A DNA stretch of 50,620 nt from Lachnospiraceae bacterium (GTDB lineage: Bacteria > Bacillota > Clostridia > Lachnospirales > Lachnospiraceae): assembly GCA_017548765.1 (NCBI GenBank), contig JAFYZH010000010.1:1-50620 (forward strand). The letters run 5' to 3'. Under the pieces are notes generated by a model that was not told the DNA's origin, ran no database searches, and was given only the letters and a program-made list of their open reading frames with translations. Positions 23,288 through 37,294 of this stretch are shown in pieces. How positions within the stretch are numbered: the stretch's first letter is position 1; every line of letters begins with the position of its first letter. The position numbers and the translations under genes were made by a program.

Positions 23288-23313
23288 CAAAAAGGGACGT
23301 TCCCTTTTGTAAC
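23286..23313. repeat. Short, degenerate palindromic repeat of the same family
   Basis: GACAAAAAGGGACGTTCCCTTTTGTAAC, an imperfect palindrome related to the arms at 22682 and 25441. It begins inside the stop codon of the small lipoprotein gene. Confidence 0.6.
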
Positions 23314-23380
23314 TTTATGAGAAAAAAAGGTACTGTATTATCGGGAGGAACAGGATCCCCCCGGAGAGGAAGGAAGCTAC

Positions 23381-25408
23381 ATGAAGAAGAGAACAGTAAC
23401 GGCGATGACTGCATTGTCCATGGTTTTAGCCTTCGGCGGATGCTCGGGTAAAAATACTGCGGAAACGACGGAAGCGGTGACCACGCAGCAAGCAACAGAG
23501 GCGACTACCACGCAGCAAGCAACAGAGGCGACTACCACGCAACAGGCGACGGAGGCTGCTACCACGCAGCAGGCGACGAAGGCAGGTCCTATGTCGGTGG
23601 CGGAGCAGTCTACCGCATCGGAAACGACCGAGGCGATCATGACGCAGGAAGAGACGGAAGCGCCTACTACGACCGAAGTGACCGAAGAGGATACGAGCAG
23701 TTTGGGTTCTGCACTGAGTGAGCTGAGCAGAATTAAAGAAGACGATGCAACGATCAACTTGATACGAGTAGCATCGTATACGCTTCTGGCCGATGAAGTG
23801 TTTTATAGGGCGGCCAGTAATATCATTACACTCGATGTCGACGTAGCGAATAAAACGATGAAGGTGTCCGGCCTCGGAGACCTGAAAGAGGATTTCATTA
23901 ACGAAATCAATACGCTCATGTTCGATGATAATAAAACAACGTTCGAACAGTTTATCTCGGATTCTTACAAAACGGACGGGTGCAAAACGAAAATCGTGTT
24001 TCAATGGAACCCTACTTTATACACCTGGGACTTCGTTGTGACAAATAACATCCCCGGTTCCAGATATTTTGATGAAGAGCAGGGCCCCGGTACCGATCAG
24101 AAAACCGGTGGAAAGACGATGATCAGGGTGATGGCATTCTTGCAAGACGAGGCAAAACTGATTAAAAAATATTTCGAAATGCATCCGGAATTTGCTGCAA
24201 AGTACGATGTCTCTTTCACGTATGTCTCCACAGACGGCGGCGCTTATATAAACGCGTTGGAAGAAGCCCTTGAAAAAGACGATGAGATGTCGCCGAACCT
24301 CTACATGGCGGAGGCGTCATTTGTTAAGAGGTTCACCACCGGTTCCTCTTCCTCCTATGCATGCACCTATGAGGAACTTGGTATCGATGTAGAGCAGAAG
24401 ATAAAGGATGCCGGCATTGCAACGTATGTTGCCGATGTTACCCGAAGAAATGGTAAGGTCACGGGCCTCGCTTACATGGGTTGCGGATGTGTCTTCATCT
24501 ACAACCGTGAAGTGGCGGAAGACGTATTCGGCGATGATAAGCCCGAGACCGTAGAAGCAGCGATCGGATCGGACTGGGAGTCATTCTTTGCGGCGGCAGA
24601 AAAATGCAAAGAGAAAGGATACGCGATCGTATCCGGCGACGGCGATATCTGGCACGCGATCGAGAACAGCGCCGACCATGGCTGGGTCGTAGACGGCAAA
24701 TTGTACATTGACCCTAAGAGAGAGGCCTTCCTGGATCTTTCGAAGAGACTTAAGGATAACGATTACCACAACGATACGATGGACTGGTGCGAAGGCTGGT
24801 TCGCCGATATGGCGGAGGCCGGACCCAAGAAGGTCCTCGGTTTTTACGGGCCTTCGTGGCTCATTAATTACACCCTCCCCAATCACACCTATTTATGGGA
24901 TTATGAAGAGGAAAAGGGCGGCACTTACGGACAGTGGGCCGTTTGCAAGGCAAATATTGGCTCTTTCTGGGGCGGTACATGGATTATCGCCAATAAAAAC
25001 GTTCTTCAGGATGAGGATCTGAAGGCGGGCGTGCGCGAGTTGATCGAGTACATGACTCTTGATACATCCGATACAGGTGCTCAGTACTTGCAGGCAAATG
25101 ATCTGGTCAGAGAAGAGAGATCGTATTTAGATAGAGGCGTGGCCTATAAGATTGCGTCCACATCGGCTACTGTAATGGAACATTCCGATGGCAAATTGGA
25201 TATTCTGGGCGGACAGAACGCGTTTCCGTACTATATCCAGGCCAATGCTGCGGCGAGAGGCGATAACCTGACGGAGTACGATGAATGGATCGGCTATTAC
25301 TGGAGAGATGCGGTCCGCTCATACACCAGCGGTGAGCGTACCCGTGAGGAAGCGATCCAGTGGTTTAAAGAAGCGGTGGGATCTTACGGCTACTTCACCG
25401 TTGAATAA
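23381..25408 (+). CDS. Solute-binding lipoprotein without adjacent transporter genes
   Basis: A 675-residue lipoprotein (lipobox FGGC, acylated C21). After the lipid anchor come TTQQATEAT repeats (about residues 34-69), a domain of about 130 residues of unknown type, and then a periplasmic-binding-protein-like domain from about residue 245: IRVMAFLQDEAKLIKKYFEMHP, the hinge-like TGLAYMGCGCVFIYNR, a ligand-site region rich in Trp and Asp, and SFWGGTWIIANKN. The last part resembles family 1 sugar-binding proteins of ABC importers. No permease or ATPase genes flank it, so it may serve a distant transporter or act as a sensor; that is inference. The extra N-terminal domain is unusual for the family. 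Confidence 0.75.
   Translation: MKKRTVTAMTALSMVLAFGGCSGKNTAETTEAVTTQQATEATTTQQATEATTTQQATEAATTQQATKAGPMSVAEQSTASETTEAIMTQEETEAPTTTEVTEEDTSSLGSALSELSRIKEDDATINLIRVASYTLLADEVFYRAASNIITLDVDVANKTMKVSGLGDLKEDFINEINTLMFDDNKTTFEQFISDSYKTDGCKTKIVFQWNPTLYTWDFVVTNNIPGSRYFDEEQGPGTDQKTGGKTMIRVMAFLQDEAKLIKKYFEMHPEFAAKYDVSFTYVSTDGGAYINALEEALEKDDEMSPNLYMAEASFVKRFTTGSSSSYACTYEELGIDVEQKIKDAGIATYVADVTRRNGKVTGLAYMGCGCVFIYNREVAEDVFGDDKPETVEAAIGSDWESFFAAAEKCKEKGYAIVSGDGDIWHAIENSADHGWVVDGKLYIDPKREAFLDLSKRLKDNDYHNDTMDWCEGWFADMAEAGPKKVLGFYGPSWLINYTLPNHTYLWDYEEEKGGTYGQWAVCKANIGSFWGGTWIIANKNVLQDEDLKAGVRELIEYMTLDTSDTGAQYLQANDLVREERSYLDRGVAYKIASTSATVMEHSDGKLDILGGQNAFPYYIQANAAARGDNLTEYDEWIGYYWRDAVRSYTSGERTREEAIQWFKEAVGSYGYFTVE
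23480..23587 (+). repeat. 27-base tandem coding repeat, four units
   Basis: Units at 23480, 23507, 23534 and 23561 encode TTQQATEA-type blocks; the first two units are identical (start ACCACGCAGCAAGCAACAG) and the last two are diverged. It lies in the linker after the lipid anchor of the solute-binding protein. Confidence 0.85.
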
Positions 25409-25505: not shown

Positions 25506-25548
25506 TGTAAGGCTTGTATTCAGATGTGGTAGTATATAAGTGAGAGGC
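25506..25548 (+). promoter_or_regulatory. Candidate ECF-type promoter, module 1
   Basis: TGTAAGG at 25506-25512, a 28-base interval containing GTAGTATATAAG, then TGAGAGGC at 25541-25548. The same pair with 27-28 base spacing precedes the other two sigma genes. By position I read TGTAAGG as the -35 element and the bases about 16 downstream as the -10 region. Confidence 0.5.
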
Positions 25549-25620
25549 ATTATCACGTGGCTCGGTGGGTGGGCTGCGCCTGTTACGTACGTATGTTTTC
25601 CGACAGAGAGGTATTTAGAC

Positions 25621-26190
25621 ATGATGCAAGACGAAAGGATCATCGAACTGTATTTCCAAAGGGATGAGCGCGCCCTTTTGGAGACATCCGATAAATACGG
25701 GAACTATTGCCGAAGCATTGCCCGAAATATCGTGAACGATGACGAGACGGCAAAGGAATGCTTCAACGATACCTTATACGCGAGTTGGAAGGTCATTCCC
25801 CCGAGTAAACCGAACCCGTTCCGCACATTTCTGGCGAAGATCACGCGGAATCTCTCGATGAAACGCTGGAGAACGGACCACGCGCTGAAACGCGGGGGCG
25901 GCGAATTCGTGATGGCTCTCGACGAACTGGCGGACTGCCTCGTGGATGAGAGCCAGAGAACGAATGAACAGATCGAAGAAGACATGGTGATCCGGGAAGT
26001 GATCAACACATTCCTGGCCGGCCTTTCTGTGCAAAACCGTCGCATTTTCGTGCGGCGTTACTGGTATTGCAGTTCAGTCCGGGAGATCGCGGATGCTTAC
26101 GACCTGACGGAGAGTAATGTCATGACCACGCTGTCCCGTGTACGGGGTAAACTGCGCGTCGCGCTTGCGGAAGCGGGGGTGGTCATATGA
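25621..26190 (+). CDS. ECF-type RNA polymerase sigma factor (module 1)
   Basis: A 189-residue sigma-70 family protein without regions 1 and 3. Region 2 runs about residues 20-90 (DKYGNYCRSIARNIVNDDETAKECFNDTLY, ITRNLSMKRWR) and region 4 about 128-185 (NRRIFVRRYWYCSSVREIADAYDLTESNVMTTLSRVRGKL, a helix-turn-helix that reads the -35 element). A KRGGGE linker joins them. ATG 25621 or the adjacent ATG 25624 gives the same N-terminus as the two other copies; the longer frame from 25540 is rejected. Its stop overlaps the membrane partner by ATGA, the usual layout for a sigma and its anti-sigma. Confidence 0.88.
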   Translation: MMQDERIIELYFQRDERALLETSDKYGNYCRSIARNIVNDDETAKECFNDTLYASWKVIPPSKPNPFRTFLAKITRNLSMKRWRTDHALKRGGGEFVMALDELADCLVDESQRTNEQIEEDMVIREVINTFLAGLSVQNRRIFVRRYWYCSSVREIADAYDLTESNVMTTLSRVRGKLRVALAEAGVVI

Positions 26191-27254
26191 ACAGAGAGGA
26201 AAGAGAGTACCGACTGATGGAACTGGTCGGTGAGATCGACGAGAAATATCTCGAAGAGGCCGAATATACCCGCGAAGAGCGCGAGAGACTGGCGGCCCGC
26301 AGGGGCGCTACAGCGGTACAGGCTACAACGGAGCAGGAGGATGATCCGGCACCGCTGCCTGTCGAGGCGGCAAATGTCGGCCCGGAGGGAGAGATTCTGG
26401 CTATCCGTGCGAACGATGTAGGCAAGACGGCATCTTTCACCCGCATTACGGTGGGGATCATATTGGCCGCAGCCGCGGTCCTGCTGTTCGTCTTCCTGTG
26501 GAAGCCGGATCGCGGACACGACGTGGTATCGACCACGGAATCCTCGGAGCAGAGCACGAAACCGGACGAGGAGACGACCGAAGAAACTACGCAAACATCC
26601 ACGGAACCGACGGCGGAGCCGATAGCGATCGACGCCGTACATTTTCCGGATGATAAGTTCCTGGGCATGGTCTCCGAGAAGTTTGATAAAAATGAGGATG
26701 GGCAGCTGGATGAAGCCGAGATTCTGAAGGTCACGGAGATCTTCGTGATGGACGGCGACATCGGCAGCCTGCAGGGGATCGAATACTTCCCGGATCTGCA
26801 GAGCCTCTCCTGCACCAATAATCCGCTGAAAACGCTGGATCTGAGTCATAATCCGAAACTGAAGATCGTGTACTGCGGCGGCGCACAGCTGACGGAACTG
26901 GACGTCAGCGCGAACCCCGATCTGCAGTCGCTCGATTGCAGCGGAAACTATTTGGAGAAACTGGATGTCAGTAAGAACCCGAAATTGGAGATGCTCCTTT
27001 GCTACAGTAACCTGTTGACGGAGCTGGATGTGAGCCGGAACAGCAAACTGACCTTCCTGCACTGTTATCAAAACCGGTTGACATCTCTAAATGTGGCGGA
27101 AAATCTCCATCTGAAGAACCTGGACTGCCACATGAACAACTTGAAGACTCTGATCGCACCTTCGACCTATGAAAGCGGCTATGTTCTCGACGAAGGTGTC
27201 GTAGTTATTAAGGGACCCGCTCCCATAGATGGATGGTCCGCGTTCAAATCTTAA
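26187..27254 (+). CDS. Putative membrane anti-sigma factor with EF-hand loop and leucine-rich-repeat ectodomain (module 1)
   Basis: A 355-residue single-pass protein. The cytoplasmic N-terminus holds MELVGEIDEKYLEEAEY (11-27) and RRGATAV (38-44), both conserved in the partners at 28990 and 31073. One membrane helix (about 86-105) is followed by FLWKPDRG, a Thr/Glu linker (to 145), an EF-hand-type calcium loop DKNEDGQLDEAE (167-178) and about six leucine-rich repeats of about 21 residues with LxxLDVSxNxxLxxLxC. Overlap with the sigma gene and the topology suggest that the N-terminus holds the sigma factor and the outer domain senses a ligand. It has no classical zinc anti-sigma (HxxxCxxC) motif, so anti-sigma activity is inferred from context. 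Confidence 0.65.
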   Translation: MNREEREYRLMELVGEIDEKYLEEAEYTREERERLAARRGATAVQATTEQEDDPAPLPVEAANVGPEGEILAIRANDVGKTASFTRITVGIILAAAAVLLFVFLWKPDRGHDVVSTTESSEQSTKPDEETTEETTQTSTEPTAEPIAIDAVHFPDDKFLGMVSEKFDKNEDGQLDEAEILKVTEIFVMDGDIGSLQGIEYFPDLQSLSCTNNPLKTLDLSHNPKLKIVYCGGAQLTELDVSANPDLQSLDCSGNYLEKLDVSKNPKLEMLLCYSNLLTELDVSRNSKLTFLHCYQNRLTSLNVAENLHLKNLDCHMNNLKTLIAPSTYESGYVLDEGVVVIKGPAPIDGWSAFKS

Positions 27255-27292
27255 TGTTCCCTTACTGAATCTTTACTTTTTTCGTTTTCCCA

Positions 27293-27333
27293 TGTAACTT
27301 TGAATGAGGATGTGGTACTATATATTAGAGAGG
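27293..27333 (+). promoter_or_regulatory. Diverged copy of the ECF-type promoter before the six-helix membrane protein
   Basis: TGTAACT at 27293-27299, then GGATGTGGTACTATATATTAGAGAGG. This resembles the module 1 region (CAGATGTGGTAGTATATAAGTGAGAGG in shifted alignment), with 26 bases rather than 28 between the conserved ends. Confidence 0.4.
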
Positions 27334-27346
27334 TGTTTTCGTGTGT

Positions 27347-27367
27347 CCCCATGGCCTCGCCATGGGG
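27347..27367 (+). promoter_or_regulatory. Hairpin in the 5' leader of the six-helix membrane protein gene
   Basis: A perfect 9-base stem, CCCCATGGC / GCCATGGGG, with a CTC loop. It lies between the candidate promoter and the start codon, has no T run behind it and is therefore not a standard terminator. Its role is unknown. Confidence 0.5.
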
Positions 27368-27436
27368 ATGTTTGCCAAATAACGAGCTTATTGACATGAA
27401 CGGAAAGACCTAAATATCAATAGAGGAGAAAATGAT

Positions 27437-28273
27437 ATGGAAAGAACAAAAATGTCGGTGCAAGACTATCGGGAGACGGAGGGTATCCTCGTTCATCTTC
27501 AAACGATCAACAAGGTATTTTTGGTATTTGAGTGCGTGTCTTTAGTGCTCATATACCTGGCGATGATCGGTTCCTATTTGGATAATGAATTATGTGAGGA
27601 CATCCTGGGATTTCTCTCGAAACATGATACGATCTTAATGGTCCTCGGTGTAGGGATCGCTATCGTAACGATATTGTATTACGTATTCCTGATGAAGATA
27701 CCATTCCATGGCACGGATTTTCTTTTAGCCGGGATCGTGGGATTTGTAGGCTTACTGTATGAGGGAAAAAATAGCACGACCGTGTCGGGCAGCAGTGGCA
27801 GTTCGTTGACATCGGCAGTTACGGCTGCATTGGTCTCAGTCGCGATCATCTTCATATTCCGCAAACTGTACTGTGATGCTATGTGCAAGATGACAGAAGA
27901 TGTGCCGGGTAGAGCCGGCAAGGCATGGGAGGGTCTGTGGAGTTTATCGCGTATCTCATGTATCATATCGGCCATTCTGATCATCGTGTTAAAGTTTTAC
28001 GCGCAGGGCTTGTATAACAGCCTGGATCGCTGGAGCAACGATTACGAATCGGCTTACACCACGTTTATGATCTCCGCAGTGGTCATCGCCGCGGCGTCGA
28101 TCGTGATCGAGATCATCTTGAGAGTCAGGGAGATCTCCTGCCTGAAGATCACACACGAGGAAGTATATTCGAAGCGTAACTCGATTCAGTCGCCGGGGGA
28201 TTATTCTCGTCCGTCGGGAACGACCCGTCAGAGCGATATGATGAGACAGTATGACATGCCCGAGGATATGTAA
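27437..28273 (+). CDS. Six-helix membrane protein of unknown function
   Basis: A 278-residue protein with about six predicted helices (27-46, 64-86, 93-108, 124-141, 171-189, 209-229), a Ser/Gly/Thr-rich loop (113-124) and a polar C-terminal tail of about 45 residues ending in MRQYDMPEDM. A GAGGAG ribosome site precedes the ATG. It sits between sigma modules 1 and 2 and has its own leader with a promoter like that of module 1, so it may be a target of one of these sigma factors. No family is recognised. Confidence 0.65.
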   Translation: MERTKMSVQDYRETEGILVHLQTINKVFLVFECVSLVLIYLAMIGSYLDNELCEDILGFLSKHDTILMVLGVGIAIVTILYYVFLMKIPFHGTDFLLAGIVGFVGLLYEGKNSTTVSGSSGSSLTSAVTAALVSVAIIFIFRKLYCDAMCKMTEDVPGRAGKAWEGLWSLSRISCIISAILIIVLKFYAQGLYNSLDRWSNDYESAYTTFMISAVVIAAASIVIEIILRVREISCLKITHEEVYSKRNSIQSPGDYSRPSGTTRQSDMMRQYDMPEDM

Positions 28274-28316
28274 AAAAGCATTATCCGGGGATATTTGAAA
28301 AAATTATAAAAACACC

Positions 28317-28359
28317 TGTAAGGTTTCACCTGCGAACTTCGTCTTTATAGGTGAAAGGC
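28317..28359 (+). promoter_or_regulatory. Candidate ECF-type promoter, module 2
   Basis: TGTAAGG at 28317-28323, 28 bases, TGAAAGGC at 28352-28359. The interval contains CGTCTTTATA 16 bases after TGTAAGG, which resembles the CGTC-type -10 element of many ECF sigma factors. Confidence 0.55.
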
Positions 28360-28423
28360 TTGTTGCAAAGACCGATCAGCAAGTGCCCGAAGGCACAAAA
28401 ACCAGACGAAGGAGTTAATCGGC

Positions 28424-28993
28424 ATGATGGAAGATGGTAAGATCATCGAGCTATACTTTGAGCGAGACGAGCGCGCGCTTGTGGAGACGTCCGACAAATA
28501 CGGAAACTATTGCCGGAGTATAGCACGTAATATTTTGAATGATGATGAGGCTGCGAAGGAATGCTTCAACGATACATTGTTTCGCACCTGGAACGCCATT
28601 CCTCCCCAGAAGCCGGACTGCTTATCGTCGTTCCTGGGAAAGATCACGCGTAACCTTTCCCTGACACGTTTGCGGGCGGACAATGCGGCAAAGCGCGGCG
28701 GCGGTGAGGCCACTGCGGCGATCGACGAATTGGAAGAATGTGTAATGGATAACTCCCAGAGGAAAGAGGAGCAGATCGTGGATGACATGGTCATCCGGGA
28801 AGTGATCAACCGTTTTCTCGCCGGATTATCTGAGCAAAACCGTCGGATCTTCGTCCGCCGGTACTGGTATTTCAGTTCGGTGAAGCAGATCGCAGAGGCA
28901 GACGGCTTATCCGAGAGTAACGTCATGACGAGCCTTTCCCGTGTTCGAGAGAAACTCAAGAAAGAATTGGAGAAAGCAGGTGTTGTTTTATGA
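28424..28993 (+). CDS. ECF-type RNA polymerase sigma factor (module 2)
   Basis: A 189-residue paralogue of the gene at 25621, with the same region 2 (YGNYCRSIARNILNDDEAAK, ITRNLSLTRLR), KRGGGE linker and region 4 (NRRIFVRRYWYFSSVKQIAEADGLSESNVMTSLSR). A GAAGGAG site lies about nine bases before ATG 28424. Sequence identity to modules 1 and 3 is high through the polymerase-binding and DNA-binding parts, so the three may read similar promoters. The stop overlaps the membrane partner by ATGA. Confidence 0.88.
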   Translation: MMEDGKIIELYFERDERALVETSDKYGNYCRSIARNILNDDEAAKECFNDTLFRTWNAIPPQKPDCLSSFLGKITRNLSLTRLRADNAAKRGGGEATAAIDELEECVMDNSQRKEEQIVDDMVIREVINRFLAGLSEQNRRIFVRRYWYFSSVKQIAEADGLSESNVMTSLSRVREKLKKELEKAGVVL

Positions 28994-30264
28994 GTAAGGA
29001 TAAGAGAACCGATCATCTGACCGATCTGATCGGTGAGATCGACGAGAAGTACATTCTTGAAGCAAAACTTCCGGAAGAAACGCTGAAACAAAAGAAAGAG
29101 CAGCGTGGTACTACACCGGTCGTTGTCAATAGCAAAGCGAAGGCTGAGAAAGACGCAACGATCCCGTTTGCAGCGGGAACTGCGCCTGAGGAGCTTGAGA
29201 TCGAGAGAGCCGTCCGCCCGACGAAGAACCGCAAGGTCTTTTCGATCGTGCGCGTAGCTACGGGTATCTCGTTGATGGCTGCTGCGGCACTGTTGTTCAT
29301 TTTCCTCTGGAAACCTACGCGTGGCGGTAATCCCGGCGCGAGCACCGAGGTAGCATTTAACCAGACGACCGCAGATGTGACACGGTCGACGGAAGGATCG
29401 AGCGACCACGAAACATCGGCGTTGATTGAGAGCGAGAAGTCTACGGAGACCGAACTTGCACTGATCGATCCGAACGAGACGATCGCGGTGGATCCGACTG
29501 CAGAGATCACGGATGTGTGGACCACAAAAGCCGGGCTCACCTTCGTACCGTCGGAGCCGGAACCTGATACTGAGGCACCGACCCAGGCTCCTGTTGTGGA
29601 ACCGACCCAGAAGCCTACAGAGGGCACAAGTGAGCCGGCAGAGAGAAATAACAAAGTGATCCGCTTCGGTTTCTTCGATCAGGACAACGATCCGTCGAAC
29701 ATGGAACCGATCGAGTGGTATGTTCTGGATCAGAAGGATGGAAAGATGCTGATCGTCAGCAAGGATATCTTGGATTTCCGCGCATATGATGACGGTACCC
29801 ACACGACATGGGCAGACAGCACGCTTCGTGCATGGCTGAATTCGGAGTTCTTAAACACAGCATTTTCCGCAGAGGAAAAGGCGAAGATCTTTGATACCAC
29901 AAATAAGACGATCGGATCGATCGTTGAGGATACGGTTGGCTCTTCGACATCTACCGAGAAGGTTTTCATTCTGTCCAAAGAAGACGTCCTTCAGTATTAT
30001 GTGGAGACCCCGCACTGCACGATCTATGCTCTCGAAGCGCCTGAATTAAGAGGAGACTATATGCCTTGGATCGTGGATGCAGAGGATCAGAACTGGTATA
30101 ACTGTTGGGCACGCACCAATGGCGGATCTGAGGCCGGCATCGCAAGAGGTTACAATGCTGCAGCTATCGATAATAGTGGAGATGAGATTTTCTCTAAGAC
30201 AACGACTAAACTCGCAGGCGTACGTCCCGCTATGTGGATCGACGCATCTGCTATCGCAGACTGA
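28990..30264 (+). CDS. Putative membrane anti-sigma factor with DUF6273-like ectodomain (module 2)
   Basis: A 424-residue single-pass protein. The cytoplasmic segment has LTDLIGEIDEKYILEAK (10-26) and QRGTTPVV (38-45); the helix is about 87-107, followed by FLWKPTRGG. A Thr/Glu/Pro linker (to about 220) leads to a globular domain with IRFGFFDQDND, EPIEWYVLDQKDGKMLIVS, TWADSTLRAWLNSEFLNTAF and a C-terminal AGVRPAMWI. These are the marks of DUF6273-like domains, which are found in surface and signalling proteins of Clostridia and whose ligand is unknown. The cytoplasmic part matches the module 1 and 3 partners although the outer domain is unrelated. Confidence 0.65.
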   Translation: MSKDKRTDHLTDLIGEIDEKYILEAKLPEETLKQKKEQRGTTPVVVNSKAKAEKDATIPFAAGTAPEELEIERAVRPTKNRKVFSIVRVATGISLMAAAALLFIFLWKPTRGGNPGASTEVAFNQTTADVTRSTEGSSDHETSALIESEKSTETELALIDPNETIAVDPTAEITDVWTTKAGLTFVPSEPEPDTEAPTQAPVVEPTQKPTEGTSEPAERNNKVIRFGFFDQDNDPSNMEPIEWYVLDQKDGKMLIVSKDILDFRAYDDGTHTTWADSTLRAWLNSEFLNTAFSAEEKAKIFDTTNKTIGSIVEDTVGSSTSTEKVFILSKEDVLQYYVETPHCTIYALEAPELRGDYMPWIVDAEDQNWYNCWARTNGGSEAGIARGYNAAAIDNSGDEIFSKTTTKLAGVRPAMWIDASAIAD

Positions 30265-30317
30265 CGTGTCTGTATGAAAACGAGATAGCAGAAGCCGATA
30301 CTATAAAACAAAATACG

Positions 30318-30358
30318 ACCGGCCGGCACGATCTTTTAGATCGCGCCGGCCGGTTTTT
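30318..30358 (+). terminator. Terminator after module 2
   Basis: A 16-base stem with one mismatch (ACCGGCCGGCACGATC / GATCGCGCCGGCCGGT) and a five-base loop, followed by a T run. Confidence 0.9.
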
Positions 30359-30368
30359 GCTTTCCTAT

Positions 30369-30376
30369 GGTATAAT
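30369..30376 (+). promoter_or_regulatory. Candidate extended -10 element before module 3
   Basis: GGTATAAT preceded by T (TGG-TATAAT, extended -10 form) between the module 2 terminator and the ECF-type motif. No convincing -35 lies at the correct distance, so this is tentative; it could give basal transcription of the module. Confidence 0.4.
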
Positions 30377-30414
30377 AGGTGCGTGTACCCCTGAATCTTT
30401 CTTCAGATTTTCTG

Positions 30415-30456
30415 TGTAAGGTTCTTCTGCAAAAGCTGTGTAGATTAGTGAAAGGC
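30415..30456 (+). promoter_or_regulatory. Candidate ECF-type promoter, module 3
   Basis: TGTAAGG at 30415-30421, 27 bases, TGAAAGGC at 30449-30456; the interval includes TGTAGATTAG. It is the third copy of the paired motif seen before modules 1 and 2. Confidence 0.5.
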
Positions 30457-30506
30457 AATCGAACGCCGACGGCGTTCAAATCTCTGAGTAGAAAAAGGTT
30501 AAGAGT

Positions 30507-31076
30507 ATGTTGGAAGACGCTAAGATTATCGATCTGTATTTTCAGCGCAATGAGAGGGCTCTGGTGGAGACGTCCGACAAATATGGGAATTATTGCCGAA
30601 GCATTGCCATGGCAGTCTTGCGAGATGAGGAGACATCAAAAGAATGCTTCAATGATACCCTGTACCAGAGCTGGAAGGCCATTCCGCCGAAGAAGCCAAA
30701 CTGCCTCAAAACATTTTTGGGAAAGATCACCCGTAATCTATCGTTGAATCGCTGGGATCGGGAGCATACGCTAAAGCGCGGCGGTGGAGAGGTCGCATTG
30801 GCCCTCGATGAACTGAGCGATTGTGTTGCGGATCGCAGGGCGAGAGGGGAGGAGCAGGTCACGGATAGCATGGTGATCCGTGAGGTCCTCAACAAATTCC
30901 TGGCCGGCCTGACTTTACAGAACCAACGTATCTTCATTCGTCGTTATTGGTATTGCAGTTCGGTGAAAGAAATCGCCGTAGCCTTAGACCTATCAGAGGG
31001 CAATGTATTGACCAGCCTTTCACGTAGCCGTGGGAAACTTCGGGAATCTTTGGAGAAAGCAGGTGTAGTAATATGA
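30507..31076 (+). CDS. ECF-type RNA polymerase sigma factor (module 3)
   Basis: A 189-residue paralogue of the sigma genes at 25621 and 28424: IIDLYFQRNERALVETSDKY at the N-terminus, region 2 (CRSIAMAVLRDEETSKECFN, ITRNLSLNRWD), KRGGGE and region 4 (NQRIFIRRYWYCSSVKEIAVALDLSEGNVLTSLSRSRGKL). All three copies have the same length. The stop overlaps the next gene by ATGA. Confidence 0.88.
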   Translation: MLEDAKIIDLYFQRNERALVETSDKYGNYCRSIAMAVLRDEETSKECFNDTLYQSWKAIPPKKPNCLKTFLGKITRNLSLNRWDREHTLKRGGGEVALALDELSDCVADRRARGEEQVTDSMVIREVLNKFLAGLTLQNQRIFIRRYWYCSSVKEIAVALDLSEGNVLTSLSRSRGKLRESLEKAGVVI

Positions 31077-32713
31077 GTAATAAAGACGAAGAGCGTCGGT
31101 TGATGGATGAGATCGGCGAGGTCGAAGATAAATTTGTTGAGACAGCCGAATACTCGCAAACCGAGGTGGATCGGTTGAATAAACGAGGCATGGCGCCGGT
31201 TATCCCGCCGAACGCCGGAAAAGGCAGGGACGGAGACGAGAGCATTGTTGAATTCGGCAAAAACGGGTCGGACCCGGATGTGCGTTCGAAAGATGATCAC
31301 CGGAGGGCGACGATCATACGTATCGCGGTGGAAGTGGTCCTGTCAGCGGCTGTTATGGTGATGCTCGTGATGTTCTGGAAGCCGGGGCGGGGAGGAGATA
31401 TCGATGTGACCACACCGACGGTACTGCCGTATACGACGACGGAGGCACCCACGGAAGCATCCACAGAAGAAACTACAGAAGCAACTGCGGAGGCATCCAC
31501 AGAAGCACCCACAGAAGCAAGCACGGAAGCATCTACGGAAGAGACTACGGAAGCGTCCACAGAAGAAACTACAGAGGCAACGACGGAAGCGTCCACAGAA
31601 GAAACTACAGAGGCAACGACAGAGGCACCGACACAGGCACCTACAGAGGCACCGACACAGGCACCTACAGAGGCACCGACGGAAGCACCTACGCAGGCAC
31701 CGACGGAAGCACCTACGCAGGCACCTACAGAGGCACCTACAGAAGCACCGACAGAGGCACCTACGCAGGCGCCTACAGAAGCACCGACGGAGGCACCGAC
31801 AGAAGCGCCTACGCAACCTATCGATGCGGACTCGATACCTGCGGATGTAGCCCATTTTCCCGATACGATGTTCCGGGGCTATCTGATGGTTAACTACGAC
31901 CTGGATAAAGACGGACGTTTTTCAAAGGCTGAATGTGAGAATGTGAAAGAGATACACGTACCCAATATGTCTGTAAAAACCGTGGAGGGAATAAAGTATT
32001 TCCCGAATTTGGAGGTTCTGGACTGCCTTGGGTGTGAATTGTCGTCGGTGGATGTCAGCCAGAACAAAGCACTAAAAGAACTGGGAGTCACACAAAATCA
32101 TCTGAAATCGCTGGATATCAGCCAGAATATAAATCTGGAGAGCCTGGGCTGTGAAGGAAACGAACTGAAAAATCTGGATCTCAGCGCCAATATAAATCTT
32201 CGCGATGTGAACTGTTCTGTGAATCAACTCACGACTTTGGATATAAGGGCCAATACAGAGTTGGAGCGGTTCACATGTCATATGAATCAACTGGTGGCGT
32301 TGGATGTGAGTGCAAATACAAAACTGATATATCTGAGTTGTGCCTATAACAACTTGACGACATTGGATGTCAGTTCGAACCAGTTGCTCCAGAGACTCCT
32401 CTGTAGTTCCAATCAGTTGACGAAATTGGAAGTGGATTGTTGCCCGTATATGGAAGTGCTTTTGTGTGCCTCGAATAAGTTGACTTCGCTGAATGTCAGC
32501 GCAAACCCGGAACTGCTGAATATCGAGTGTCAGGATAACCAACTGGCTTCGCTGGATCTGAGTTCCAACGAGAAGCTGGGAAACCTGTGGTGCTTTAACA
32601 ATCCTATGCAGTCGATCGATCTGACAGCGAATACATCCATGACGACCCTTCGTTGTGACTCAAAACTCAAAGTGACTGGGGCGGGAAGCGCTCTGGAGAT
32701 CACACGCTACTAA
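31073..32713 (+). CDS. Putative membrane anti-sigma factor with TEAPT stalk, EF-hand loop and leucine-rich-repeat ectodomain (module 3)
   Basis: A 546-residue single-pass protein. The cytoplasmic part has RRLMDEIGEVEDKFVETAEY (8-27) and KRGMAPVI (37-44); the helix is about 81-102, followed by FWKPGRGGD. A stalk of about 130 residues of TEA[PS]T / TQAPT repeats (121-249) lifts the outer domain. That domain starts with an EF-hand-type loop DLDKDGRFSKAE (276-287) and continues with about 11 leucine-rich repeats of about 21 residues (LxxLDVSxNxxLxxLxCxxNxL). The arrangement is that of module 1 with a much longer stalk and roughly double the repeats. Anti-sigma function is inferred from overlap with the sigma gene and the shared N-terminus. 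Confidence 0.65.
   Translation: MSNKDEERRLMDEIGEVEDKFVETAEYSQTEVDRLNKRGMAPVIPPNAGKGRDGDESIVEFGKNGSDPDVRSKDDHRRATIIRIAVEVVLSAAVMVMLVMFWKPGRGGDIDVTTPTVLPYTTTEAPTEASTEETTEATAEASTEAPTEASTEASTEETTEASTEETTEATTEASTEETTEATTEAPTQAPTEAPTQAPTEAPTEAPTQAPTEAPTQAPTEAPTEAPTEAPTQAPTEAPTEAPTEAPTQPIDADSIPADVAHFPDTMFRGYLMVNYDLDKDGRFSKAECENVKEIHVPNMSVKTVEGIKYFPNLEVLDCLGCELSSVDVSQNKALKELGVTQNHLKSLDISQNINLESLGCEGNELKNLDLSANINLRDVNCSVNQLTTLDIRANTELERFTCHMNQLVALDVSANTKLIYLSCAYNNLTTLDVSSNQLLQRLLCSSNQLTKLEVDCCPYMEVLLCASNKLTSLNVSANPELLNIECQDNQLASLDLSSNEKLGNLWCFNNPMQSIDLTANTSMTTLRCDSKLKVTGAGSALEITRY
31433..31819 (+). repeat. Minisatellite-like coding repeat (TEAPT/TQAPT stalk)
   Basis: About 387 bases of 12-30 base units such as ACAGAGGCACCGACACAGGC in tandem. 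The first half codes for TEAST/TEETT variants and the second half for nearly uniform TEAPT/TQAPT units, which suggests recent expansion of the second half. Confidence 0.85.
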
Positions 32714-32718
32714 AAGAA

Positions 32719-32760
32719 AAAGCTTTGGCGACCGTATGTCGGCTGCCAAAGCTTTTTTTA
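32719..32760. terminator. Bidirectional terminator between module 3 and the histidine kinase gene
   Basis: AAAGCTTTGGC and GCCAAAGCTTT form the stem, with A-rich and T-rich flanks on the two sides. The minus-strand kinase gene ends here too. Confidence 0.85.
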
Positions 32761-34170
32761 TTCTTCTTTTTTGCCGGGCTGCAGGGAGAACACGAATTCG
32801 GTGCCGACGCCTTCGGTACTGATGACGTCGATGTTCTCCTTATGCGCGGTGATGATATCTTTTGTGATCGAAAGGCCCAGGCCGGTGCCTTTCTTATCCT
32901 TGCCTCGGGAGGCGTCGGACTTGTAGAAACGTTCCCAGATCTTCGGCAGGCTTTCGGCCGGTATGCCGATGCCCTGATCCTTTACGGAGATGAAGGCCTT
33001 CTCATGCCGCATGTAGGCGGAGATGAAGATGACCGATCCGGGGTTGGAGAATTTAATCGCATTGTCGATCAGGTTGTAAAGCACCTGTTGGATCTTATCC
33101 ATGTCCGCGTATACGTAAAACGTGGACGCGGGAAATGTCAGGTCGAAGGTGATGCCTTTATCGTTGCAGCGCTTCTCGAAGGTCGCCAGGATCTTCTTGA
33201 TGCTGTGCAGGATATCGAAAGTCGAGTAGCTGAGCAACGCACCGGATTTATCGATGGTGTTCAGGTCCAGGAGACCCTGGGTCAGTTTATTCAGACGGTC
33301 AGTCTCGTTCAGGACGATCTTAAGATATTTATCCTGGGCTTCCTTCGGGATGGTGCCGTCGAGGATCGCCTCGATGTAACCCTTGATGGAAGTCAGCGGC
33401 GAGCGGAAGTCGTGGCTGACGTTTGCGATGAATTTGCGCTGGTCTTCACCATACGTTTGCAGCGAACTCGCCATATAGTCGATCGTGTTGGCGATGTCGG
33501 TCAGCTCCGTCTTATCCTTCAGCTCGATGCGGTGGGAGAGGTTTCCCGCACGCACCTCCGCGACACCCTTGCGGATGGCGCTCATTGGCCGAAAGTAGAA
33601 GAATTCGAACAGGAGGAAGCTGGCGGCGAACATAATGGTGAGGATGACCGCGGCCGATGTGAAGCGCCCCATGACCAGGGAGACTTCCGTTTCGACCTGC
33701 TTGTAATCGGCATGACCGATCACGTAGCCCGCTCGTGTGAAGCCGTTATTGATCGGAGCGTAGCGACTGATGTAGTCATCGGAAAATGTGTTGTAGAACG
33801 TGCCGAAGAAGATGCCGGCCGCGTCGCTGTCCGCGGGGTTGAAGGCGGGCAGGGCGTTGATGCTCCTCTGCCGGTTGGTGCACAGGAGGATCATGCCGGT
33901 CGGATCCATAAGCCAGAACTCATGGCCGCTGATCTCGGCGACTCTTTCGATCATGTCGCGGTTCTCGAGCAGCTTCTGCACGGGATCTCCGCCGGACTCA
34001 CTCTTCGTCAGGGTCACGATGTAATTCACCTGATCGTACAGTTCTTCCTGGAGTTTCTTCCGGAAGTGCCCGGTGACCAGATCGCGTCCGAAGGTCCCCA
34101 TCAGGATGAAACCGACAGCGGCGATGATCACATATGCAATTATAAAACGTGTAAATAACGATCGCCGCAT
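32758..34170 (-). CDS. Sensor histidine kinase with HAMP domain
   Basis: A 470-residue membrane kinase. Helix 1 is about 8-27, followed by an extracytoplasmic sensor region of about 140 residues, helix 2 (about 171-192), HAMP (about 193-245), HisKA with the phosphorylated His at about 253 (NVSHDFRSPLTSIKGYIEAI), and the ATPase domain with N box NLIDNAIKF, DQGIGIP and GTGLGLSI. It resembles WalK/PhoR-type kinases. Its start lies nine bases behind the stop of the response regulator gene, so the two form a two-component system. The signal is unknown. Confidence 0.92.
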   Translation of the reverse strand: MRRSLFTRFIIAYVIIAAVGFILMGTFGRDLVTGHFRKKLQEELYDQVNYIVTLTKSESGGDPVQKLLENRDMIERVAEISGHEFWLMDPTGMILLCTNRQRSINALPAFNPADSDAAGIFFGTFYNTFSDDYISRYAPINNGFTRAGYVIGHADYKQVETEVSLVMGRFTSAAVILTIMFAASFLLFEFFYFRPMSAIRKGVAEVRAGNLSHRIELKDKTELTDIANTIDYMASSLQTYGEDQRKFIANVSHDFRSPLTSIKGYIEAILDGTIPKEAQDKYLKIVLNETDRLNKLTQGLLDLNTIDKSGALLSYSTFDILHSIKKILATFEKRCNDKGITFDLTFPASTFYVYADMDKIQQVLYNLIDNAIKFSNPGSVIFISAYMRHEKAFISVKDQGIGIPAESLPKIWERFYKSDASRGKDKKGTGLGLSITKDIITAHKENIDVISTEGVGTEFVFSLQPGKKEE

Positions 34171-34179
34171 GACGGACTC

Positions 34180-34884
34180 CTATCTTGTCTCGAATTTGTA
34201 ACCGATGCCCCAAACCGTGGAGAGTGCCCATTTTTCATGGTCGTTGATCTTCTCACGGATACGCTTGATGTGTACGTCGACGGTACGGGTATCGCCGACA
34301 TATTCATAGCCCCAGATGTGATCCAGCAGCTGCTCACGTGTGAACACCTGGTTGGGTGAAGAGGCCAGGAAATACAACAGTTCGATCTCCTTCGGCGGCA
34401 TGTCGATGCTCTTTCCGCGGTAGATGACGGAGTAGTTCGTAAGGTTGACGATGAGCCCCGGATACTCGACGTATTCGCCCTTTTGTGCATTCGGGTTGGT
34501 TTCCGAACTCGCCGGTGTGACACGCCGTAAAACAGCCTTAACGCGTGCTACCAACTCCTTCGAGTCGAAAGGCTTGATCATATAGTCGTCCGCGCCGAGC
34601 TCGAGACCCAGCACCTTATCGAAGACTTCACCCTTCGCCGAGAGCATGATGATCGGGGTCTGCGAGGTCTTGCGGATCTCGCGGCACACCTGATAGCCGT
34701 CCATGCCGGGCAGCATCAGATCCAGCAAAATGATCTGCGGCGTGAAATCGTGGAACGCGTCCAGCGCGTCCTGCCCGTCGTGCACGATCTTCGTCTCGAA
34801 GCACTCCTTGATCAAATAGAGGGAGATGAGCTCCGCGATGTTCTCGTCATCGTCCACGATCAATACTCTTTGTTTATCTGCCAT
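34180..34884 (-). CDS. OmpR/PhoB-family response regulator
   Basis: A 234-residue regulator: a receiver domain with the acidic pocket DDDEN, the phosphorylated D55 in LLDLMLPGMDG and the conserved Lys in IKPFDSKEL, then a winged-helix DNA-binding domain (ELLYFLASSPNQVFTREQLL, DTRTVDVHIKRIREKI, VWGIGYKF). The ATG at 34884 follows AGGAGGAT on the minus strand; the frame open further upstream (to 34962) would run into mutS2. It partners with the kinase gene behind it. Confidence 0.93.
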   Translation of the reverse strand: MADKQRVLIVDDDENIAELISLYLIKECFETKIVHDGQDALDAFHDFTPQIILLDLMLPGMDGYQVCREIRKTSQTPIIMLSAKGEVFDKVLGLELGADDYMIKPFDSKELVARVKAVLRRVTPASSETNPNAQKGEYVEYPGLIVNLTNYSVIYRGKSIDMPPKEIELLYFLASSPNQVFTREQLLDHIWGYEYVGDTRTVDVHIKRIREKINDHEKWALSTVWGIGYKFETR

Positions 34885-34906
34885 AATCCTATCCTCCTGA
34901 CCGGCG

Positions 34907-37294
34907 TCATCTTTCCTTAAACACGACGATGGTGACGCCGGAGTCGCCCTCGCCATACTCACCTAAGTGGAATTCCTTCACATATTTCAGTTTCCGCAGT
35001 TTCTGGTGCACGCCGTTACGCAGCGCGCCCGTGCCGCGGCCGTGGACCACGCGTACCTTCTCCAGATGTGCCAGGTATGCATCGTCCAGATATTTCTCCA
35101 TTTCGGGCAATGCTTCGTCCACCGTCTTTCCGATGAGATTGATCTCCGTGGAAATGGCGGCGGTCTTCGCCATCTTTATCTTCCCCATGCCGCCGATCGC
35201 GGACTGGTTCATCGTGATGCCGGGCTCGTCGGGCAGGAGGGAAACGTCCTTAATGTTCACGAGGGAACGCAGGATGCCCATCTGCGCGTAGAAATCGCCT
35301 TTTGCGTTCGGTAGCGAGCTCACGGTGCCCTTCAGGTTCAGGGAGTGCACCAGGATGCGGTCGCCTATCTTAAGGTCGGAAGCGGAGAGTGCTGCGGTCG
35401 CATTCTTCTTCGGTTCGACCTTATTCTTCGAGCCCTGGGATACCTTATCCAGGCGCTCGCGCACCTTCGTGCGGTCCTCCTCCATGGAGCGGATCTGCGC
35501 GCCGCCCGCGCTCTTTTTATTCAGGTCGCGGATGGTCTCATCCACGAAATTCTTCGTATCCTGCAACATGGACTGCGCTTTCTGCCGCGCGTCCTCGAGG
35601 ATCTTATCTTTCTGCGCCGCCAACTTCTCTTGCTGCGCGGTGAGTGCGTCGCGCTCGCGCACCAGGTCTGCCTTCAGCGAATCGACCTCAGCCTGCTTGC
35701 GCTCGATCTCGACCCGCGCATGCTCCAGCTCGCTGACGATGTCCTCGAAGGACTTCGCGTCGGAGCTCAGGTGCTTCTTCGCGTCGTCGATAATGTAGTC
35801 CGGGAAGCCCAGCTTACTCGAAATGGCAAATGCATTACTCTTTCCGGGTATGCCGACCAGAAGCCGGTAGGTCGGGCGGAGCGTCGCAACGTCGAACTCG
35901 CAGCTCGCATTTTCCACGCCGTCCGTCGACAGGGCGTAGACCTTTAATTCACTGTAGTGCGTAGTCGCCAGTGTACGCACCTGCATGTTGTGCAGGAAGT
36001 TCAGGATGGAGATGGCGAGCGCCGCGCCCTCCGTCGGGTCCGTGCCCGCACCCAGCTCGTCGAATAAAACGAGGGTGTCGCGGTCGGCCTGCTCCAGGAT
36101 CGGCGCGATATTCTTGATGTGCGAGGAAAATGTACTGAGGCTCTGTTCGATGCTCTGCTCGTCTCCGATGTCCGCGAAGACCTCACGGAACACCGCCAGC
36201 TTCGAATGATCGAAGGCGGGGATGAACAGGCCGGCCTGGCCCATCAGCGTACACAGGCCGACGGTCTTTAAGGTGACCGTCTTACCGCCCGTGTTCGGAC
36301 CGGTGATGACCAGCAGGTCGTAATCCTGGCCCAGCGAGATATCGATCGGCACGACGACGTCAGCCGGGATGAGCGGATGGCGCGCCTTTTTCAAATTGAT
36401 GATACCGTCGGTATTGAAGTCCGGCTCGGTGCCGTTATAACTGCGCGCGAAGACCGCCTTCGCGAAGATGAAGTCCAGCTCGGTGAGCGTGCGGAAGTCA
36501 TTCTCGATCGCTTCGGACTCGGGGGCGCACAGGTTGGAGAGGGTCGCGAGGACCTTCTCGATCTCTTTCTGTTCTTCGATCTCCAGTTCACGCAGGTCGT
36601 TATTCAGTTTCACGACCGCGCTCGGCTCGATGAAGATGGTGGAGCCGCTGGCGCTCTGATCGTGCACCATGCCGGCTACCTGGGATTTGTATTCTGCCTT
36701 CACCGGGATGCAGTAGCGTCCGTCTCGCATGGTCACGACCGCATCCTGCAGGAGGGTGCGCTGCGACTGCAACATGGAGGCCAGCTGCGAACTGATGCGC
36801 TGCTTCGTGACGGCCAGCTTACGGCGTACATTCTGCAGGCCGGCGCTCGCATCGTCCGCGATCTCCTCTTCGGAGAGGATGCAGCGGTCGATCTCGCGGC
36901 CGATCTGGGTCAGCGGCGCCAGGCTTAAGAAGCGCTCGTCCAGCGAATCAAAGTCGTCCGGCTCTACGTCGCGCACGCCGTAGGAACGCGCCCGTGCGGT
37001 CGCTTTCAGAAGCGAGGAGATATTCAGTAGTTCTGTGATGCTGAGACCGCTGCCTAAAGACAGGCGCCTCAGCGAGGGGATGACGTCGCGCGTGCCGGAA
37101 AAACTCGGATTTCCCTTGCGATAGCAGCGGGAAACCGCGTCGGACGTCTCTTTTTGGGTCATTCTGATCGTTTCGGGATCGTCGGTCGGTTTTAATTCCT
37201 CACAGAGTTTCCGGCCCGAAGGGGTCGTGGCGTGCTCCGCGAGCATTGCGACGATCTTCGTGTATTCCAATACCCGTAGTGATTTTTCGTTCAT
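34907..37294 (-). CDS. mutS2: MutS2 ATPase / endonuclease with Smr domain
   Basis: A 795-residue protein. The MutS-type core has Walker A GPNTGGKTVTLKT and Walker B LVLFDELGAGTDPTEG, followed by a long coiled coil (about 510-620), a KOW-like segment (LKIGDRILV) and a C-terminal Smr domain (about 715-795) with VVHGRGTGALR. MutS2 proteins lack the mismatch-recognition domain of MutS; in B. subtilis the family member acts on collided ribosomes (RqcU) and in other species in limiting recombination. The Smr domain here starts EINLIGKTVDEAL, with Ile instead of the Asp-containing LDLRG of many homologues. It is the first gene of the minus-strand operon. Confidence 0.93.
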   Translation of the reverse strand: MNEKSLRVLEYTKIVAMLAEHATTPSGRKLCEELKPTDDPETIRMTQKETSDAVSRCYRKGNPSFSGTRDVIPSLRRLSLGSGLSITELLNISSLLKATARARSYGVRDVEPDDFDSLDERFLSLAPLTQIGREIDRCILSEEEIADDASAGLQNVRRKLAVTKQRISSQLASMLQSQRTLLQDAVVTMRDGRYCIPVKAEYKSQVAGMVHDQSASGSTIFIEPSAVVKLNNDLRELEIEEQKEIEKVLATLSNLCAPESEAIENDFRTLTELDFIFAKAVFARSYNGTEPDFNTDGIINLKKARHPLIPADVVVPIDISLGQDYDLLVITGPNTGGKTVTLKTVGLCTLMGQAGLFIPAFDHSKLAVFREVFADIGDEQSIEQSLSTFSSHIKNIAPILEQADRDTLVLFDELGAGTDPTEGAALAISILNFLHNMQVRTLATTHYSELKVYALSTDGVENASCEFDVATLRPTYRLLVGIPGKSNAFAISSKLGFPDYIIDDAKKHLSSDAKSFEDIVSELEHARVEIERKQAEVDSLKADLVRERDALTAQQEKLAAQKDKILEDARQKAQSMLQDTKNFVDETIRDLNKKSAGGAQIRSMEEDRTKVRERLDKVSQGSKNKVEPKKNATAALSASDLKIGDRILVHSLNLKGTVSSLPNAKGDFYAQMGILRSLVNIKDVSLLPDEPGITMNQSAIGGMGKIKMAKTAAISTEINLIGKTVDEALPEMEKYLDDAYLAHLEKVRVVHGRGTGALRNGVHQKLRKLKYVKEFHLGEYGEGDSGVTIVVFKER

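Follow-up and report, generated by a model that had tools for sequence, protein, structure and literature searches.

The DNA analyzed here (the window, 50,620 nucleotides) is one whole contig, JAFYZH010000010.1, of a 2.6-Mb genome of a Lachnospiraceae bacterium (106 contigs, 98.7% complete). It carries three neighboring modules, each consisting of a gene for a sigma factor of the extracytoplasmic function (ECF) type and an overlapping gene for a membrane protein. We consider it highly probable that these pairs combine an ECF sigma factor with a transmembrane anti-sigma receptor, the N-terminal helix of which would hold the sigma factor until a signal frees it to induce its own module.

The three sigma genes (25621..26190, 28424..28993 and 30507..31076) and those of partners 1, 2 and 3 (26187..27254, 355 amino acids; 28990..30264, 424 amino acids; 31073..32713, 546 amino acids) all lie on the plus strand, and in each pair the stop codon of the sigma gene overlaps the start codon of the partner in the sequence ATGA. 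The original prediction of three 189-residue sigma factors, coupled in this way to single-pass membrane proteins, is borne out by the coordinates and by a scan that found one hydrophobic segment per partner, with the best window at residue 81-87. Sigma factors 2 and 3 are, respectively, 71% and 68% identical to sigma factor 1. All three exceed the cut-offs of the Pfam model Sigma70_r4_2 and of TIGR02937 (sigma70-ECF), and two exceed that of Sigma70_r2, with sigma factor 3 at 22.2 against the 24 bits needed. Sigma regions 2 and 4 (sigma2 and sigma4) within about 190 residues, a membrane-protein gene alongside and an ECF-type promoter motif upstream together mark them as ECF sigma factors; no PDB chain was retrieved with the sigma profile A2 at E ≤ 1e-6. 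The recognition helix reads NVMT in sigma factors 1 and 2 and NVLT in sigma factor 3. The promoter motifs, also on the plus strand, are located at 25506..25547 (TGTAAGG ... GTATATAAGTGAGAGG), 28317..28358 (TGTAAGG ... CGTC ...) and 30415..30455 (TGTAAGG ...); the region originally singled out begins at 25506, the first base of the module 1 motif.

The partners share a cytoplasmic N-terminus and a juxtamembrane motif, as had been proposed: over ~112 residues, partner 1 shares 41% identity with partner 2 and 36% with partner 3, and W-K-P-x-R-G is invariant among the three. The consensus of the N-terminal helix is xLLxxIGxIDDxYIxEA, and the cytoplasmic portion extends for ~80 residues ahead of the membrane span, shrinking to ~30-40 residues in most of the distant members of the family. 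None of the Pfam and NCBIfam matches of the window partners covers this region; the RsgI N-terminal model and DUF4179 are not among these matches, nor is any anti-sigma model of NCBIfam or, at E ≤ 1, of Pfam. Among 25 of the 26 families found at E ≤ 0.001 in 86 scanned partners, the RsgI model was likewise absent, and the sole anti-sigma model was DUF4179, below its cut-off in three partners. In a re-scan of ten distant partners, DUF4179 matched three (L086, L103 and L119) weakly, across the membrane segment, at 19-23 bits against a cut-off of 30.1. A PDB search with the N-terminus profile A7 yielded three low-scoring matches (to a designed protein, E 0.00015, and to outer surface protein A), which we take to be due to chance.

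Beyond the single membrane span, the partners diverge. Partner 1 contains an EF-hand-like stretch followed by leucine-rich repeats (LRR), partner 2 a Thr/Glu-rich stretch and DUF6273, and partner 3 a long PTEA-repeat stalk, an EF-hand-like stretch recognized by eye and LRR; the repeats of partners 1 and 3 are of the internalin J type, and the best PDB sequence match of partner 3 is the internalin J LRR structure 3bz5 (E 1.4e-44, residues 262-529). The DUF6273-like domain proposed for partner 2 is thus present. Of the expectation that the outer domains would be unrelated or differently sized, the word unrelated applies to partner 2 compared with partners 1 and 3 but not to partners 1 and 3 themselves, which have related LRR domains. 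Similarly, of the EF-hand plus LRR arrangement predicted for the latter two, the repeats stand in both, whereas the EF-hand is below the Pfam cut-off in partner 1 and has no match in partner 3. The same 25 of 26 families, counted over the 86 partners, include LRR_4 (18 partners), serpin (6), DUF6273 (4), DUF4179 (3, under the cut-off), DUF4349 (2), BspA-type LRR (1) and beta-propeller (1). The six partners in which a serpin (protease-inhibitor) ectodomain follows a similar N-terminus come from related Clostridia. Two pairs of sister modules are direct evidence of ectodomain swapping, because nearly identical sigma factors are coupled to unrelated outer domains: in L029_8684 and L058_2408, the sigma factors are 89% identical and the ectodomains are tandem DUF6273 and LRR, respectively; in L046_935 and L073_913, the sigma factors are 86% identical and the ectodomains are tandem DUF6273 and an EF-hand-like/LRR domain.

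A search of the genome with the sigma profile identified 12 places, of which the window modules are three. Together with the two swapped sister pairs, these 12 modules support the earlier suggestion of a receptor array that grew by module duplication and ectodomain exchange. The N-terminus profile scored strongly behind ten of the 12 sigma factors and weakly (E 0.03 and 0.28) behind the distant ones on contigs C22 and C2, both of which score clearly with a profile built from all 12 modules. Two further weak matches in this genome have no sigma factor (C26:9972, an orphan LRR protein, and one on C92). On contig C26, five orphan LRR proteins (381-893 amino acids) are interspersed among four modules; at L027:8777-17940, two sigma modules flank four orphan LRR proteins (381, 893, 827 and 880 amino acids) that lack the complete anti-sigma N-terminus. 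Named close relatives comprise RUG508 and four Lachnospiraceae assemblies, UBA1201, RGIG8251, RGIG7058 and RGIG7973. By comparison of coordinates, a sigma match directly adjoins all 42 places at which the N-terminus was detected at E ≤ 2e-7 in six genomes of the genus. The genus genomes also contain more distant pairs of an ECF sigma factor and a membrane partner (L174, L175 and L176); in L175, the promoter reads TGTAACC and the ectodomain looks von Willebrand-like by eye.

The pairing extends across the class, in which we sampled 291 genomes, 50 of them with a sigma match at E ≤ 1e-30. Full N-terminal motifs were defined as matches to profile A7 at E ≤ 1e-4 that begin at or before profile position 5 and end at or beyond position 45, with at most 22 candidates scored per genome and with partial matches, mostly to the membrane span, excluded. 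There were 80 such motifs, and a sigma4-bearing gene or remnant precedes each of the 79 that were examined (G294:C23:63765 was left out): 66 ECF genes matching the sigma profile A5, ten XRE-sigma4 hybrids, two broken ECF genes (L178 and L181) and one sigma4 tail at a contig end (L188). In L181 (1940-2383), the sigma gene upstream of the partner has been cut down to its sigma4 end, possibly by an insertion, given that a transposon-type zinc motif is discernible by eye upstream. In the reverse direction, 66 of the 94 class sigma matches outside the genome of the window have a full-motif hit. When loci were collected by the sigma factor alone (the best 80 of 561), an open reading frame (ORF) of more than 60 codons followed in 77, with the exact four-base overlap in 60 of these; as for the exceptions, L080 and L109 reach contig ends, L097 has a 50-residue frame that bears the motif, the ORF after L133 is not a partner and L088 has a truncated N-terminus. 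Among 29 class loci that were read individually, the partner motif lies downstream in all 28 with an intact sigma ORF (L156 lacks one), with the four-base overlap in 26. Thus, the question raised at the outset, whether these N-termini always follow a sigma gene, is answered in the affirmative for the motifs examined, if genes and remnants bearing sigma4 are counted.

The XRE-sigma4 hybrids combine an XRE helix-turn-helix with sigma4 and are encoded directly upstream of partners in L179, L180, L182, L183, L184, L185, L186, L187, L189 and L190; in all six hybrids tested, HTH_3 and sigma region 4 scored above the Pfam cut-offs. Because sigma4 is the part that the ECF factors and the hybrids have in common, it is the likely docking site of the partner N-terminus. 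In one of the 12 modules of this genome, a single ORF joins a degenerate ECF sigma factor to the N-terminus, membrane-spanning segment and LRR domain of a receptor. The fused gene occurs in three genomes of the genus, this one and two sister genomes (G000, G001 and G005; 567, 583 and 569 amino acids), the sigma-receptor fusions being L032:6927-8630 (minus strand), L171:1091-2842 (plus strand) and L172:1079-2788 (plus strand). Pfam no longer detects region 2 in the sigma part, and region 4 exceeds the cut-off in one of the three. The ratio of nonsynonymous to synonymous substitution rates (dN/dS) of the sigma part is 0.26-0.30 in the three pairwise comparisons, compared with 0.04-0.12 in six pairs of free sigma factors of the genus; within the fusion, the ratio is higher in sigma4 (0.37-0.42) than in sigma2 (0.18-0.23), against 0.06-0.21 for free sigma4. 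The fusion is retained under purifying selection, though probably not as an ordinary sigma factor. We rejected an assembly error as the origin of the fused gene, given its presence in three genomes at different divergence and its dN/dS of 0.26-0.30. A further genome, G316 (L173), has one long frame in which the sigma region appears, by eye, to be frame-shifted partway; it was not counted as a fusion.

Most sigma genes of the genus are preceded, 32-73 bases ahead of their start codons, by a shared element that consists of TGTAA[C/G], approximately 16-17 bases, a CGTM-like segment and then TAGATAAGTGAAAGG. The pattern TGTAAN{27,31}GTGARAGG matched seven sites in the 2.6-Mb genome, six of them just before sigma modules, compared with none for the reversed control. 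The element is present in nine of the 12 modules, in one with an altered 3′ block only and in one with TGTCC, and is missing from those on C64 and C22 and from the fusion. Among the sigma factors of the close group, 27 of 31 have the element, and in these the residue that follows NV in the sigma4 recognition helix tracks the two bases after TGTAA. Arginine occurs with CA (8 of 8), lysine with CC (4 of 4, and also in the distant L175) and methionine or leucine with GG (11 of 11), the remaining residues being His (2), Glu (1) and Thr (1). At base -31, all 12 sigma factors with Lys or Arg have C and all 15 with other residues have G, with no exceptions among the 27. According to PMC6713349, K170 of SigW bonds the guanine opposite C-31 and is also part of the RsiW interface; in all 27 cases, the residue equivalent to K170 fits base -31. 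With the helix columns excluded from the sigma tree, the residue, the promoter class and their joint state each require six changes on it. At the other loci (91 sigma factors, including some genus members), a TGTAA site together with a -10 is absent in most; outside the close group, those with a TGTAA site have Lys with C at -31 (L077, L127, L138, L153 and L175) or Ser with G (L110, L144 and L096). Looser TGAAA sites are mixed, with Lys at TGAAACT, TGAAACC and TGAAATA, Ser at TGAAAAA and TGAAATC, and Thr at TGAAATA.

Allowing up to three mismatches to the element also yields sites outside the modules. The genes behind these sites encode a solute-binding lipoprotein, secreted proteins of the Ig-like and InlB-repeat types, membrane proteins and, in one case (L197), a carbohydrate-enzyme-like product; for three sites (two on C99, one on C48), the next ORF starts more than 200 bases away. 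Some of these matches will be due to chance. Within the window, two such sites on the plus strand, both TGTAACT with three mismatches, mark possible regulon members on the same strand. The site at 27293..27333 precedes an ORF for a 278-residue membrane-protein-like product (27437..28273; no Pfam family above the cut-off), and that at 23308..23348 precedes the ORF at 23381..25408, just upstream of module 1, which encodes a 675-residue lipoprotein-like product that includes a stretch of Thr-rich repeats and matches no Pfam family at E ≤ 0.01. The former ORF separates modules 1 and 2, so that the modules, described originally as tandem, are neighbors but not strictly tandem. Directly beyond module 3, ORFs that read as a histidine kinase and a response regulator occupy 32758-34962 on the minus strand. 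Elsewhere, a 514-codon ORF with sigma regions 2 and 4 and a long C-terminal extension (L194:1790-3334) starts 27 bases after a weak, three-mismatch promoter match.

In the mechanism we envisage, the partner N-terminal helix would sequester the sigma factor at the membrane, most likely via sigma4, and the outer domain (LRR or DUF6273 here, serpin and others in relatives) would sense something external. The signal would release the sigma factor, and stepwise proteolysis is the most likely route, as in RsiV, where a ligand triggers signal-peptidase cleavage followed by RasP (PMC6066255), or in RsgI, where RseP and ClpXP act in the release (PMC12203970), according to the excerpts of these reports. 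This genome encodes a site-2 protease family member (Peptidase_M50), which is weak evidence for proteolysis because all 14 control genomes encode one as well. The freed sigma factor would transcribe its own module from the TGTAA[C/G]-N16/17-CGTM-type promoter and probably also genes for secreted and surface proteins. During evolution, the modules would have multiplied by duplication and exchanged their outer domains, and the sigma4 residue reading base -31 would have drifted, which would give partly separate channels.

Several observations weigh against this interpretation. Of the 94 class sigma matches, 28 lack a full-motif hit at E ≤ 1e-4, and two genomes, G167 and G234, account for 19 of these; the E threshold is the likelier reason, because the one locus read from each of these genomes (L160 and L168) has the partner. 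In G002, a receptor part occurs without a sigma factor at E ≤ 1e-15 (L177). The element is missing from four close sigma factors that form one orthologue group, from the C22-type modules and from the fusions, and the promoter class was assigned by eye in five of the 27 cases. Independent-pair tests on the sigma tree found one to three pairs only, a number with which significance cannot be reached. The genome-wide sites with up to three mismatches show a weak excess (19, that is, 11 + 8, vs 5 in controls), and TGTAACT, the sequence of the sites ahead of 23381 and 27437, agrees with none of the module promoters seen in this genome. Finally, AlphaFold2 modeling of residues 1-270 of the natural fusion gave no confident interface, with a predicted template modeling score (pTM) of 0.57 and a per-residue confidence (pLDDT) of ~60-69 in the N-terminal helices.

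Other explanations account for parts of the data. The partner could be a positive co-factor or membrane scaffold that recruits or activates the sigma factor upon ligand binding, rather than an inhibitor, and the fusion, which holds sigma factor and receptor in one chain without an obvious release point, would suit such a role. However, the sigma part of the fusion looks degenerate, and the gene order, in which a sigma gene is followed and overlapped by that of a membrane protein whose N-terminus is cytoplasmic, is also seen in established anti-sigma pairs, for example SigI/RsgI (PMC4711584, excerpt), so that we consider this possibility unlikely. Alternatively, the LRR and DUF6273 proteins might be ordinary surface proteins, mere targets within sigma operons, with the common N-terminus serving only as an anchoring signal. 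Similar LRR proteins without the N-terminal motif do adjoin modules, and this genome has 99 LRR_4 matches (among the 14 control genomes, only one shows the family); yet none of the 79 examined motifs is found away from a sigma4-bearing gene or remnant, despite very different ectodomains, which makes this explanation highly improbable.

The upstream element, in turn, could be a conserved leader or operator instead of a sigma-dependent promoter, in which case the modules would not be autoregulated. Its most constant block, GTGAAAGG, follows the -10 position, an unusual arrangement for ECF promoters. Nevertheless, the layout of TGTAAC and CGTM is ECF-like, and the match between residue and base at -31 is the one predicted by the SigW structure; we regard a leader or operator as quite improbable. 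The anti-sigma receptor model can be embedded in a broader concept, which in our judgment has an even chance of being correct: a modular receptor platform with an exchangeable sensor, in which sigma4 itself is recognized by a single short membrane-tethered helix, able therefore to control ECF sigma factors and XRE-sigma4 hybrids (the latter probably not sigma factors) alike, and in which a one-residue code in sigma4 sets the promoter. In one branch, the receptor fused to a degenerate sigma factor may be a decoy or co-receptor.

By analogy, the closest known system in logic appears to be SigI/RsgI of Clostridium thermocellum, which, as described in the excerpts of PMC4711584 and PMC6056542, likewise includes several paralogous pairs of sigma and anti-sigma factors: the genes mostly overlap, the cytoplasmic N-termini are related, a membrane span is present, the outer sensing modules differ, the self-promoters have diverged and cross-talk is limited. 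In contrast to SigI, the sigma factors here are of the ECF type, the N-terminus before the membrane span has ~80 residues compared with ~165 in RsgI, and the outer domains are LRR, DUF6273 or serpin instead of carbohydrate-binding modules. SigV/RsiV of Bacillus subtilis (ECF30, DUF4179) is also a Firmicutes ECF sigma factor with a membrane anti-sigma receptor, but the ectodomains differ, and the window partners have no DUF4179 match. The LRR fold is shared with internalin J of Listeria, a surface protein, whereas here it forms the outer part of a sigma-linked membrane protein. The zinc motif Hx3Cx2C is absent, as noted in the original prediction: residues 1-80 contain no Cys in any of the three partners in the window. 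The step from there to a new mode of inhibition does not follow: according to the excerpt of PMC7406223, membrane class I anti-sigma domains have or lack the zinc motif about equally often, and the class II protein CnrY uses two short helices, one on sigma4 and one on sigma2, so the missing zinc is no evidence of novelty. By description, the short helices without a zinc bundle make CnrY a lead for comparison. The claim of an undescribed system therefore holds in part: the architecture has precedents in SigI/RsgI and RsiV, whose logic it parallels, and the new elements are the N-terminus without Pfam or NCBIfam coverage, the ectodomain swaps and the XRE-sigma4 hybrids. Among the papers listed in a literature search of titles and the beginnings of abstracts, with few subscription papers, none dealt with these modules or with XRE-sigma4 hybrids that have anti-sigma partners.

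If this interpretation is correct, gut Clostridia would possess a large class of envelope receptors that are connected directly to transcription and have exchanged sensors from module to module, and a readable rule would link sigma4 to the promoter. It predicts which sigma factor reads which promoter and that the anti-sigma helix requires sigma4 only. The exchange of ECF sigma factors for XRE-sigma4 hybrids would then mean that anti-sigma control is able to spread to regulators that are not sigma factors.

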